Below, in pieces: positions 53,151 through 60,364 of a DNA stretch of 64,000 nt. Within the stretch, counting starts at the first letter, position 1. Each line of letters opens with the position of its first letter. Both the position numbers and the translations under genes were made by a program. Under the pieces are notes generated by a model, which was not told where the DNA came from, searched no databases, and worked only from the letters and a program-made list of their open reading frames with translations. The stretch is from Rhododendron vialii. Lineage: Eukaryota > Streptophyta > Magnoliopsida > Ericales > Ericaceae. The stretch is from positions 35,759,001 to 35,823,000 of the forward strand of contig NC_080563.1 of the NCBI RefSeq assembly GCF_030253575.1. Reading direction: 5' to 3'.

Positions 53151-54629
53151 TGCATGACTACCATGACCAATTGTTGCATTTAAAAGCCAGAGTTGAAATT
53201 AATGAGAAAATTAAGTAAAATAACAAGATTTGGTGATCTCACTTAATCAACCTTGTTCGGAGAGAACCAATTAAATTAATGGATAAAAACATATTCCAAG
53301 ATTTGATGAAATCACTTCATCTCTTTCATCGGCTAGATATCTGCTCACTGTTGTTTTATCCATTTTTTTTTAATTTCTGAATCAACTTTTTTTTTAATTA
53401 ATCATTCATCCCGACAAGAGGCCGAAAATATCAAGCTTTTTAATAAGCGCAAATCAGCAAATATGCTTAAGCAATTCATATTTCGATTGGCTATCATCCC
53501 TATGTATATTAAATTACCAAGTCAGTGTCTCATAATGTATTTTATTTTGGCTACCAAATGTAAGGAAGATGCTAATACTCTCTCGTTCTTTTATTCTTGT
53601 ATGTCGGAGTACAATTACTTTTCTGAAGAGAGGAAAAATGAGGGGGGAAAATGTGATAAAAGTAAATTATTTTTTTTCCGGACGGCAAACAAAATATTAA
53701 TATTTGAAATTGTTACAAAGACTAAATGAATAAGGATTTGACCGTATCATATCCCTAAGAACAATCCGTGACCCAATTTGAAATTGATAAGATGCCAACC
53801 AAGAAAACACTCGTTTGGTCAAGTCTACACCAATTGAGCCAAACCCAAAACACCTATTGTGACAAGCCCATAATCGCCAAATGGCCAAAATTCAAACACC
53901 TAAAAAGGCAAACCCCGTACAACTAATGGGCCAAGCCCAGAACCTAAAAACCTAAAAACCCAAAAACCCAAGTCAGTAACCTTAGCCTCTGCTGACCCAA
54001 GACCCGCACCTCCGCACGTTGACCCACAGCCGCCGCAATCACCCAGAAGCCATCACCACCTCCAGAACCTACAAGAGCGCGCGGCAGCCACTCTTGTGAA
54101 CTACTAGTACTTAAATATATGTTGCTTGCTACTATAGCCGAGGACATTTTTGGTAGCCCCTATTAAAGTGTTTCAGGGTCACTTCTTTTTGCTATCAAGA
54201 ATGGCTAAAATGTTCATTGAGCTGATACATTAATATTTGCATATGTACCGTGAAACGAATATTCCAAATCTAAAAAAAAAGATTCGGAGGCCGTTGATGG
54301 TCTCCGGGATAACGAGAAAAAGGCAAGAAAAAAGAAAGAACATGAGATCATGAACATGAATACGATGACAAATCTGTTATGTAAACTTCATACATAAAAA
54401 ATGACACGCCAATCAAATTGTGACACGTGGCATTTATTTGAAGTTCCGCGAAAAGCCGAAGTCCATTAAAGCCTAATCAACGACTGGGTCAAGACTACTC
54501 CAGGAGTTGTATGGAGATCAATAGACATCTCACTCTTCCAACCAGCTCAAGAGTTGTATCAATAGGTTTTTTGCTCTTCCAACAAGGGACGGAGCCAGGA
54601 ATCTCGGGCAATGCGGTCAATATATAAAA

Positions 54630-55190
54630 GGGCAAATTTTCGTAGTCGTCCCTCTAGTTTTACGGTTATCTCAATTTCGTCCCTCTAATTTGTTTTATGT
54701 CTCAAATTGGTAAAATCGTTAACACCGTTAATGAAACTAACGGAAAAAATATAATTAAAAAATTAAGTGCTCCAATTTTCAATCCAATTGAATCAGTGCG
54801 AAGATCTTATTTTTTTGATCATTTTATCCTAGTTGGTCGTAATGAATTTTTGGCTCTAAGGCCTTTCAACGAGCACTCGAAAACTCCTTATTTAGTTTTA
54901 GGACTCTCTTAGGATGCTTATTGAAAGGCCTTAGAACCAAAAATCCATTATGACCATTTAAAATAAAATGATCAGAAAAATAAGATATTCGCACTGGTTT
55001 AATCGGATTGAAAATTGGAGCACTTAATTTTTTAATCATATTTTTTTCCGTTAGTTTCATTAACGGTGTTAACGATTTTACTAATTTGAGACGTAAAACA
55101 AACTACAAAGACGAAATTGAGACAATTGAAACTAGAAGAACGAAATAGAGACAGCCGTAAAACTAGAGGGACGATTACGAAAATTTGCCC
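54630..55190. mobile_element. Fold-back Mutator-type element, 561 bp
   Basis: Perfect 9-bp duplication TATATAAAA (54621-54629, 55191-55199). Almost the whole element is an inverted repeat: GGGCAAATTTTCGTAGTCGT at the left is mirrored at the right, as are inner blocks such as AGGCCTTTCAA. The small loop lies near 54905. Confidence 0.92.
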
Positions 55191-55526
55191 TATATAAAAA
55201 CATAGTTGATCTTTTTCTCATTTACTAACAAAACCTGACATGCAATACTACTATAAAATAATTGGTGATTGATCAAGCATGGGGTAACGGTTAATGTGGA
55301 AATAATATCTCGATATTGGTAATTGTTAATGTTCACAGAAGCTTGCAAATGCTTATTCACACTTAGTGGCCTATGGTTATCAAAATTCCAGTATTAAAAG
55401 ATTGGCAAATTTATAGTTTTGGTGGGGTTGCTCGACTTGCTTCATATGTGAGCAATTCTATTAGAATCGTGGGCTCAAATTCACAAAATGTTTTAAAAAT
55501 TAACCAATTAACTTCATGGGTAAATC

Positions 55527-56089
55527 AGTAGGGCTGCAAATGAACAGAGCCGCTTGAGACTCGGCTCGGTAAAAGCTCGTTTGAGCTTGCTCGAGACATA
55601 AATAAACAAACTCAAGCTCAAATTCTAGACTCGTTTCGGTATCAAGCCGAACACAAGCTAGTAGAGGCTTGGCTCGAGTTGTCTCGCAAGCCAAGACTTA
55701 ATAGACTTTTTACGTTAATTATTACAATTAACATTAGCATTTTGACATCTTGATGCAGAATTCTTACAAAAATATATTACATATTATTATTCTAAAATTG
55801 AGATTATTTTCTCGTAGAATATAGGAAAATAAAAGATATATACGTTCACAATCAATGTATTTTTGGTTGTATTAGGCCTATGCGATGATATATATATATA
55901 CACGTTTTTTGTTGGCCCGCTAAGACCTGTGAACAAGCTCGAGCTTGAGTCAAACCAAGGTCTACTTGGCTCAAGCTCAACTCGTTAAGTTTTCACTAAG
56001 CTCAAGCTCGAGCTCGAGTTCGTTAAAAACTTAATAAACAAGTTTGAACACAGTAAAGCTTGACTCGGTTTGGCTCATTTGCAACCCTA
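55527..56089. mobile_element. hAT-like element with GAGCTCG/CTCGGCT words, 563 bp
   Basis: Ends TAGGGCTGCAAATGA and TCATTTGCAACCCTA; flanks GGTAAATC (55519-55526) and GGTAAATG (56090-56097), 7 of 8 matching. Word-like GAGCTTGAGC/CTCGGCT repeats on both sides of an AT-rich core. Confidence 0.85.
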
Positions 56090-56330
56090 GGTAAATGTGA
56101 AGGTCGGTGGGGTCCTTAAGTGGATCCCACCTGACCAGCTTCCATCTCTTTGTTTTGAGAATAACTCACTTAAATGATATAGGTCATATTGGATCCTAAC
56201 ACAAATCTGTCGCGTTGGGTACGAATAAAGATTACCTAGCTAATTGGGTTGTAGATGAGTAAATATAACCCAATAAAAAATCAAACCCATATATAAAAGC
56301 CGCCAAAATTCACCCAAACCCGGCGGTTTA

Positions 56331-57465
56331 AACCCCTATTCCCAAACTGATAAGCATCTCACAGGCAGCTCTAATGGCATGGAGCTCCCCTCCAAGACTG
56401 GTCCTAACATGAACTGACTTTGCAAGGCCATCCACAATCTTTCCTTTCCAATTTCGAAGCACAACAGCAGCGATACTCCTAAGCCCGGAGGCAGGAATGG
56501 CTGCGTCACAATTTGCTTTAAATCTGCCCTTGTTCGGAGCCCTCCAGGTGGATAAATCCTCCTGATTAGCTGGGTTATCCATCTGGACTTTAGGAATCTC
56601 AAAAGCTTTTAAAAACTCCATCTCAGCATGGAGAAATGATGTTATTGTATGCTGTGGGTTAACCTTCGTTTTGTTAAAGACAAAATCATTCCTTGACTTC
56701 CATATGTTCCACGCTATTAGAGCCACTCTGCCCATGAGATTAATTACCTCCTTTACTGTCAAGTTTTCCATCATATCAGCTACCCATTTGATCACAGAGC
56801 CATTACCACCCAAATCCCCCAGCGGTTTAATGTTGCACCCAAACCATACCATTTTGGCCCATGGACACAGAAAAAACAAATGTTCCGTAGTTTCTACTTC
56901 CTTCTCGCAGATGGGACACAGATTGTCTACTGAACATCTCCTCTTGAACAGATTTTCTTTTGTTCCTAAAATGTTCTTGCAAGCCCGCCACCAAAAACTC
57001 CTTATCTTATTAGGCACTTTCATTTTCCACATAACTTTCCAAGCTTCTTTTTTCAGTTTGAAAGACGATTCAGGCTTCTCTCTTTGACTCTCCAAAATCG
57101 CTTGTTGAGCGATATGGTAACCAGATTTGACAGTGTAGATTCCTGAAGAGTTAAAATGCCACACAAGATGATCCGGCCTTTTCACATGAGGTAAAGGGAT
57201 TTTCAAAATAGCATCAACAACTTTTTGAGGAATCTCCTTCACCATCTTTGAGATATCCCATTGTCCTGACCGATCAATGACATCCGCCACCAAGTTTATT
57301 TCACTGTTAACTGATTTGGCCACAGGAATTTTGAAGTTTGGCAAGGATGGGATCCATGCATCATTCCAAAAATTTATGTTTTTACCATCCTGGACCTGCC
57401 ATCTCAAACCCTTAAAGAGCAGATTTCTCCCATGCAAAAGGCTCAACCATGCCCAAGATGCTCGA
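56331..57465 (-). pseudogene. LINE ORF2 fragment: zinc-binding domain and start of RNase H
   Basis: Open for about 380 codons. It begins with the reverse-transcriptase-tail stretch (SWAWLSLLHGRNLLFKGLRW, WNDAWIP), then the zf-RVT domain (WKMKVPNKIRSFWWRACKN, CPICEKEVETTEHLFFLCPWA), then the first part of plant-type RNase H with its catalytic Asp (KANCDAA) and Glu (GELHAIRAACEML). It ends in the target repeat. The reverse transcriptase itself is missing (5' truncation). Confidence 0.88.
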
Positions 57466-57769
57466 CTGAGGTGGAGTCCGATAGCCAGCAGGCAATCCAT
57501 CTAAGTGTGTCGGAATTAGTGCCTCCTTGGGATGTCAGAGCTTTGGTGATGGACATTAGACATTTTGCAAAGGAAGGAAATCTTCTTTTTAAGTGGGTTC
57601 GAAGGGCCGCAAACAGAGTGGCACATAAAGTTGCTTTTTTAGCTTCAAGAAACTCTCTTCCATGTAATTGGATTGTTAATCCTCCCACTTCTCTTGTACC
57701 AGTTTTGGAAAAGGATGTTAATGAAAGCCCTTAAGGTGTGTTTTGCGGATCAAAAAAAAAAAAAAAAAA
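56345..57769. mobile_element. LINE insertion with 5' inversion (twin priming)
   Basis: Two oppositely oriented pieces of one LINE abut near 57465: the more 5' piece on the minus strand (57465 to about 56345) and the 3' piece on the plus strand (57466-57769) ending in 18 A. The 5' piece stops inside RNase H exactly where the 3' piece takes up. Direct repeats AACCCCTATTCCCA (56331-56344) and AACCCCAATTCCCA (57768-57781) flank the whole as target duplication. Confidence 0.92.
57466..57734 (+). pseudogene. LINE ORF2 C-terminus: end of RNase H
   Basis: Continues RNase H with the third catalytic Asp in VESDSQQAI, then DIRHFAKEGNLLFKWVRRAA, NRVAHKVAFLA and a normal stop at 57732. A 17-bp 3' untranslated region leads into the A-run at 57752-57769. 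This is the non-inverted 3' half. Confidence 0.88.
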
Positions 57770-57781
57770 CCCCAATTCCCA

Positions 57782-60364
57782 GCCAACCACAATAAGTATC
57801 AAATTCTTCTCCTCACAGCACTTAACACTGCAACGCAATCACTAAGCCAACATGATATCATCTTGCATGGAATCAGAAGAGTGAGTCTAGTCTAGGGTTT
57901 AAAACCACAAGCAAAACAACATAGCTAACAGAAAGCAAATTAATAAGATAGCATGTTTTACCAAAGCAGATTCAAAAAAAGGTTGAACCAATATCGGTAA
58001 TCACACTGAGTTCACCAACACAACTGCATACGACTGTCTAAAATACATGACAGTGAGGATCTTCAAACGCATTATGAGACTCATGAGATATGATATTCCT
58101 CACTAGTCATGCCGGTCAGCCCACCACCTAAACACTTCGGTCTTCTATTCCAACTAGCTCTGCAGAATTCGTGCACTAAAGAGGTTGATGGAAGGAATTA
58201 ATTCACCATACCAAGCTATATATATTACTTGTGTCAAGTCCTCGATTTTCAATATAAATAAATAAAGCCTTTCCTTAAATAAAATGCTCGCAATACATAA
58301 CATAATACTCCAAAAGAGTCTACCATTCCCATGTTAACGTATTACGGTTCCAACTCCAGTTGTTTCCAATATTTACATCTTTGGCACAACGGCCCAAAAG
58401 CATAAGTACTTGATACGAAGAGTTAAGAGTTTACAGTTACCCATAGTCAAAAGAATATAATTAAAGTTACAATTACATCTTCAAAACGTGATTTACAAGA
58501 GATGCGAAAGTAACTCCTCAAGTCAGGTTTCAAAAGTATGATCAGTCCATGCACATCAAGCACGCAATGCTATTTCCCGAGATTTACACCTGAAATGAAT
58601 GAAGGGTTGAGCTACACTAGCCCAGTAGAGAGTTCTACACTAGCTTTATATGCTCATGAGATGACAAGAAGGATGTACAGTGGAAGCAAAACACGAATTA
58701 TCAGATGAGAACATGAGCATAACACACATCTTTCATAGTTCCAACATATTCCCAACATGTCTTTCGTTTCATATCATTGTCGTTTAATCGCGTTCATATC
58801 ACATCATCTTTTCATCATCAAGTAACCTAAGCGAATGCTCAGGTCAGGCATTATGGATCACGTGGTTCCTACCTAGCATCCTCACCCGTCGGCTGGTCTA
58901 TTGCGTGTCATGAGCGTCAGCTTCTGCCGGGCATTATGGATCCCACGGTCCTTGCCTAGCATCCTCACCCGTTGGTGGGTCTAGTACGTGTTCACAACTC
59001 TTTTCATATGTTATCATCTCGCAGTTCATTCATTATTCATCCACATTGTTTAACAAACTCATCTATCAATCATAATCATACAATTCGCGTTCAATCGATC
59101 AAGTACCAAGTATGAATCATGTAATATTACCATTAAACACGTCAACATGCATAAATTCACTCATTAGGATGGACCAAAGCTTTAGAATATAAAATTGGGA
59201 TGATATATGAAAAATTTCTATGAGACAGGAGTCCTACCGGTAGGGAATTGGGTCCTACCGGTACAAACTGGAATCATAAGAGCCAAAAATTTGGACACGG
59301 AGAAATATCAAACGTTCTACGGGTAGGAAAGGAGTTCTACTAGTAAGACCACTACCGGTAGGGAAAAAGTTCTGGTAAGACTTGGGCAGAAATGGCAATT
59401 TTCACAGCTTTTGCAGCCAAAAACAATAATTTAGGCTCCATTTATGGCATCAAAACACTAATAAAACATATAAACAGCGGTAGAAATCCCTACCTCAAAG
59501 ATTTGAGAGTCAAACCCAAGATTTCCTAAGCCCTAAAACTCCAAATTTGAAATCCTCCAAGAACGATTCTCTCCGAGCTTGAGCGAGCGAAACCCGAGGT
59601 CTAGAGCAAACAGCAATGGACATAGCTAAACCATAGCTTTACCATAAGCACACGTTCATGTAATTGGCTAATGAAGCAACAGAAAGCATAACTTGTACTT
59701 TGTTTTCAATGACATAGAATCTATTGTGTCAAGGGTGTGAAATGTTATCATGCAGTGATGGAGGTGAGGCGGTGGTAAGAATTGATTTCGAGTCTAACTC
59801 CAAAAAACAAATAATCAAAGACTGAGAAGATCAATGTTGGACCTGTTGCATTGTCGATTGTCAAATAGGCAATGTGGTAGACACGTGCACGTGCACAAGC
59901 CAGACTATTGGCAACAAAAAATAGTCACCAAAAAAAATCATCACCAAAGAAGAAAAAGGTTCCAAATAGGTTTATCAAGTCTACTAAGAATCAAACTAAC
60001 AGGTAAGAGTGAGAGAGAAGTAACGAACGATATTTACTTCCCTCTTCTGGCAGATTTTGTTGGAAAGGGGAAGCGAAAGGTATCAATTACACACACAACC
60101 AAACACTACTCTTTTAATAATCTTGAACACAAAACACAAACACAAACACAATTACTCATCTCACTCATTCTCTCTCTCATCAATTTCCCTTCCACTGGTG
60201 GTGGGGGAGGCCCCCCAAAGGGGCTGCCTCTTTCTCACATCTCTCCTTCTGTTTCTCTCTTTTACTTCACACTCTTCCTACTTGTACAATCAGAACTCCT
60301 ATGTATATATAGACATAGATGGGGGAAGCAGACAAAGGGTTTTGGATAACTTGTAATCCCAAAC
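57782..60364. other. Gene-free stretch with a two-copy repeat
   Basis: No coding gene recognised. Short CTACCGGTAGG-like words recur at 59235-59365. It may be part of an unrecognised LTR element or just spacer downstream of the 14-3-3 gene. Confidence 0.4.
58847..58990 (+). repeat. 82-bp period direct repeat, two copies
   Basis: Each 62-bp unit has GGCATTATGGATC, then CCTAGCATCCTCACCCGT and GGTCTA. The second starts at 58929. Confidence 0.85.

Follow-up and report, generated by a model that had tools for sequence, protein, structure and literature searches.

Ostertag and Kazazian are said to have described twin priming for 5′-inverted human L1 insertions in 2001, and it is for human L1 in human cells that 5′ inversion has been studied best. 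In the accessible portions of the papers cited here, to which all figures taken from them refer, 639 of 2068 human and chimpanzee L1 insertions are 5′-inverted; about 70% of such copies have 2–5 bp of microhomology at the outer junction of the inverted arm, and 28 of 605 have none there (PMC2912911). Microhomology at the inner junction is frequent in published inversions (PMC2912911) but sometimes absent (PMC2837659). In cultured human cells, the target repeats of 5′-inverted L1 copies are mostly 10–20 bp long, with a peak at about 15 bp, and a comparison in cell culture found 5′ inversion only with L1 in human cells, with one exception, a single insert of zebrafish Nimb-2_DR in chicken cells (PMC4245944). 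Because inversion in culture is nearly confined to L1 and human cells, it may depend on the host or the element. The plant LINE Celine of poplar has many truncated copies, with target repeats (counted from 10 bp up) of 10–30 bp and 15 bp on average; the main text of that article, so far as accessible, contains no word starting with ‘inver’ or ‘twin’ and describes no copy as inverted (PMC11288735). The accessible text of a paper on Arabidopsis Sadhu does not describe an inverted copy either, its sole ‘inver’ word concerning an arrow in a figure (PMC2848041). A limited search of open-access literature returned no report of twin priming in a plant, and the subscription literature may hold earlier ones. 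To judge by title and opening abstract, the papers it gave on twin priming deal with human, mouse, mammalian or general topics.

The LINE copy described here resembles 5′-inverted human L1 in its inverted 5′ arm, normal 3′ arm and A-tail, in a TTT/AAA-like nick, and in a 15-bp duplication, 4 nt of outer microhomology and a small internal loss. Its 15-bp repeat and 4-nt microhomology are within the ranges common for 5′-inverted human L1 in the portions of the papers cited above. Unlike human L1, the element encodes an RNase H of the RVT_3 type at the end of ORF2, and its host is presumably not a mammal; unlike many human L1 inversions, the copy has no microhomology at its inner junction. Its repeat and its truncation also resemble those of poplar Celine as described in the accessible text (PMC11288735). 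The mechanism is already well known, and the present copy is a clean individual case of its known outcome, seen outside mammals.

The copy occupies positions 56330–57781 of the window, the whole stretch of 64,000 nucleotides that was analysed, which is part of contig C7 in a genome of 532.6 Mb and 13 contigs. Read directly in the sequence, it is a single 5′-truncated LINE copy in two arms. The inverted 5′ arm (56345–57467, minus strand) contains the C-terminal part of ORF2, with zf-RVT and the first half of RNase H; the non-inverted 3′ arm (57468–57751, plus strand) contains the second half of RNase H, a stop and a short 3′ end, and is adjoined by a run of 18 A (57752–57769, plus strand). The sequence-only reading of this stretch had noticed the same order of inverted 5′ part, normal 3′ part and A-run, and had explained it as 5′ inversion by twin priming; the observation is confirmed as real and the interpretation is supported. 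Refinement of the edges upheld the split but shifted its border from 57465/57466 to an inner (inversion) junction at 57467–57468.

One kind of plant LINE carries RNase H at the ORF2 C-terminus, with zf-RVT followed by RVT_3. Pfam searches recovered this order at the ORF2 C-terminus of the window copy, with zf-RVT on the minus strand (E = 1.4e-18) and one RVT_3 domain divided between the strands: profile positions 1–60 matched the minus strand (E = 0.0075, under the curated cut-off) and positions 62–120 the plus strand (E = 0.00011, over the curated cut-off). Three residues, which we take to be the catalytic ones of RNase H, are distributed in the same way. The codons of the first Asp (NCDAA; 56505–56507) and of the Glu (GGELHA; 56385–56387) lie on the minus strand and that of the third, Asp (ESDS; 57480–57482), on the plus strand, as the sequence-only reading had it. 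In an intact frame of 1374 aa from the same genome (L080), residues 908–1285 align to 57467–56337 on the minus strand and residues 1287–1371 to 57462–57716 on the plus strand, with identities of 58% and 62%, so that the split of the domain is seen independently of Pfam. No reverse-transcriptase domain was matched by Pfam in the window copy, which starts at residue 908 of L080, and a search of solved structures gave one match only (E = 0.34). A gene on the minus strand was considered for the 390-aa open frame and rejected: this frame reads LINE ORF2 along the inverted arm, its first 11 residues coming from the plus arm in antisense and its last few from the target repeat.

One target repeat of 15 bp, identical at 14 of 15 positions, encloses both arms at the outer edges of the element. 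Its left copy, AAACCCCTATTCCCA, lies at 56330–56344 and its right copy, AAACCCCAATTCCCA, at 57767–57781, where its first AAA is also counted as the last three bases of the A-run. The duplication had been put at 14 bp with 13 identical; its presence holds and its length is corrected. A general repeat finder missed it because the longest exact run, 7 bases, is shorter than the 9-base seed. When pairs of places were drawn at random from this window, 41 of 200,000 matched at 14 or more of 15 bases in any of 11 registers; the observed match falls exactly on the two ends of the element. TTT are the last bases of the left flank and point to a first-strand endonuclease nick of TTT/AAA where the left target copy begins (56327–56332). 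This putative site resembles the cutting preference of the L1 endonuclease, which is described as cutting preferentially between TTTT and AA (PMC2912911). The target before insertion would have been a single AAACCCCWATTCCCA. We found no empty site within the genome: among the best 40 of 456 and the best 40 of 52 candidate matches to the left and right flanks, none apart from the window extends as far as the point of insertion.

Examination of the junctions for short microhomology, which had been proposed as a check, gave 4 nt where the inverted arm meets the target and 0 nt at the junction between the arms. Relatives read through the break as ...GATCAGTT-TGGGCCTAAAGGAAGTG-GAGGTGGAGTCC... (C7b is the example given). 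Read in LINE sense, the last bases of the inverted arm are ...ATCAGTT; next comes TGGGAATAGGGGTTT, which is complementary to the left target repeat, and the plus arm starts at GAGGTGGAGTCC (57468). Between the arms, 17 nt of family sequence are accounted for as four bases (TGGG) supplied by the target and 13 that are absent. The outer match is one of target CCCA (56341–56344, the presumed site of second priming) with its complement, LINE TGGG, which stands at the break in 7 of 8 relatives and is replaced by TGGA in C9; among pairs drawn at random from this window, 0.5% show a four-base match. The inner junction, ...CTCGACT/GAGG, has 0 nt in common with the continuation of either side when compared with C3 and C7b; on the inverted side, C3 is the only one of the eight relatives that reaches the junction, and it is 7–8% different.

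Eight close relatives from the same genome (C11, C7b, C9, C7a, C13, C4, C6 and C3) have 89–98% DNA identity to the plus arm, and 16 further matches to this arm are more distant (66–77%). The sequence-only reading had allowed that intact members might share the head-to-head layout, or that the two parts might come from different LINE families. Neither applies. All eight close relatives are collinear through the break, and the inversion was rejected as the normal layout of the family. The best matches of both arms are the same three copies, C7b, C11 and C9, differing by 1.1–1.3% from the inverted arm and by 1.4–3.2% from the plus arm; both arms belong to one subfamily, and a fusion of two families was rejected as well. 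Their matches to the inverted arm start at different points: within its 1123 nt, at position 96 in C4, 242 in C7b, 347 in C11, 513 in C9, 977 in C6, 1075 in C7a and 1091 in C13, whereas C3 matches from the very beginning of the arm. Shared strings adjoining the edges suggest target repeats in C7a (16 nt), C9 (12 nt), C7b (11 nt) and C4 (8 nt), and an automatic search gave no convincing repeat for C11, C13 and C6.

A search with the plus arm yielded 25 loci, 20 of them with both arms, and the arms were on opposite strands only in the window copy, which served as a working positive control of the comparison. Protein matches placed both arms on the same strand at 19 loci, seven of which are among the eight close relatives; at the other five the protein search gave no upstream piece, although 36 nt of DNA show L020, one of the five, to be collinear. 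The intact L080 frame gave matches in 71 of 80 loci, many of which overlap, and matches on both strands in four, all of them the window locus. For other LINE families, no opposite-strand neighbours occurred among 87 matches (best 81 of 3637 candidates scored), but the list also misses the plus arm of the window copy, so that it carries no weight as a negative. These family counts are lower bounds, because only the best candidates of the genome search were scored.

One relative has a peculiar 5′ end. In C7b (locus L009, G000:C7:36461000-36466500), just upstream of 36463983, 21 nt precede the collinear part and stand between its start and the target repeat CCTAATCCTGT. Taken with TGT, the final three bases of that repeat, these 21 nt contain LINE sequence from 60 nt downstream, copied in sense over 15 nt, and then 11 nt of antisense LINE sequence, AAAATAGCATC, which overlaps the sense copy by two bases. 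To judge from these matches, the 5′ junction of C7b looks like a templated patch.

The window copy is a recent insertion. In the inverted arm it differs from C7b at 10 of 881 sites, from C11 at 10 of 776 and from C9 at 7 of 610; in the plus arm the differences are 4/283, 6/285 and 9/285, respectively. Among these four copies, changes private to the window copy number 4 of 760 sites in the inverted arm and 2 of 272 in the plus arm, or 6 of 1032 in total (~0.6%), and it is because of this small number that we regard the copy as young. Youth had also been read earlier from the long open frame. The age stands; the frame alone is weak evidence of it, because C7b, C11 and C9 also have only 0–1 stops in the matched part.

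Twin priming very probably produced the 5′ inversion of the window copy. We infer the order of the cuts and both priming events as follows. A first cDNA would have been started from the poly(A) tail at the TTT/AAA nick, and the top strand would have been cut 15 nt away before this cDNA was complete. The 3′ end of the top strand (...TTCCCA) would then have annealed to an internal UGGG of the RNA already being copied, at a site 13–17 nt upstream (5′) of the point where the first cDNA stopped, and this CCCA-3′ end would have primed a second cDNA of ~1.12 kb. Joining of the two cDNAs without overlapping bases would have cost 13 nt of element sequence (17 with the four target-derived bases) and left a dead, 5′-truncated, 5′-inverted copy flanked by a 15-bp duplication. 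Several features count against twin priming: the inner junction has no shared bases, though published inversions often have a few; one base of the target repeat differs; the fourth microhomology base is missing in C9; and no empty site is among the flank matches listed.

The alternatives each need extra coincidences. Small inversions occur in genomes, and an ordinary 5′-truncated LINE insertion could have had its 5′ part inverted locally at a later time by a double break and rejoining; the blunt inner junction and the loss of 13–17 nt would also fit end joining. One of the breaks must in that case have hit the exact edge of the target repeat and also yielded a 4-nt match of target and LINE just where twin priming predicts it, and we consider a later inversion very unlikely. 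Still less likely is dual priming, which has been put forward to explain human loci and in which two different family RNAs would have been copied from the two target ends. The absence of inner-junction microhomology would suit it, and the derivation of both arms from one RNA molecule is itself only probable. However, the model, as set out in the accessible text, has the second RNA anneal via its poly(A) tail (PMC2837659) and leads one to expect a poly(T), absent here, where the inverted arm borders the target; in addition, the arms belong to one subfamily and stop 17 nt apart on one coordinate. Finally, two independent head-to-head insertions, or an assembly misjoin of two copies, could draw on the other copies of the family, three of which match the inverted arm at 99%, but a single target repeat round both arms, a single A-run and arms that end at nearly adjacent family positions make this the most improbable account of all.

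Returning to twin priming, we are evenly divided on a broader proposition, namely that plant LINEs invert under the rules of human L1 (a duplication of about 15 bp and short pairing of target and RNA) and that, in this small family, the 5′ end of C7b shows a templated patchwork that looks primed by the top strand. If it is true, the host and element factors that permit 5′ inversion would not be peculiar to mammals. Young plant cases with collinear relatives offer material for a survey; one copy sets no rate.

The flanks of the insertion contain other repeats. At 54629–55191 there is a long fold-back element in which inverted arms of 132, 84 and 63 nt are nested, with 89–92% complementarity. 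Apparent terminal inverted repeats, seen by eye near 55533 and 56091, were not listed by the repeat finder. The segment 55902–56092 is part of an abundant dispersed repeat, found in at least 39 other places at 82–88% identity (best 40 of 456 candidates). On the right, up to ~80 bases of 58219–58300 recur in the genome at 77–95% identity, with at least 39 further matches (best 40 of 52 candidates).
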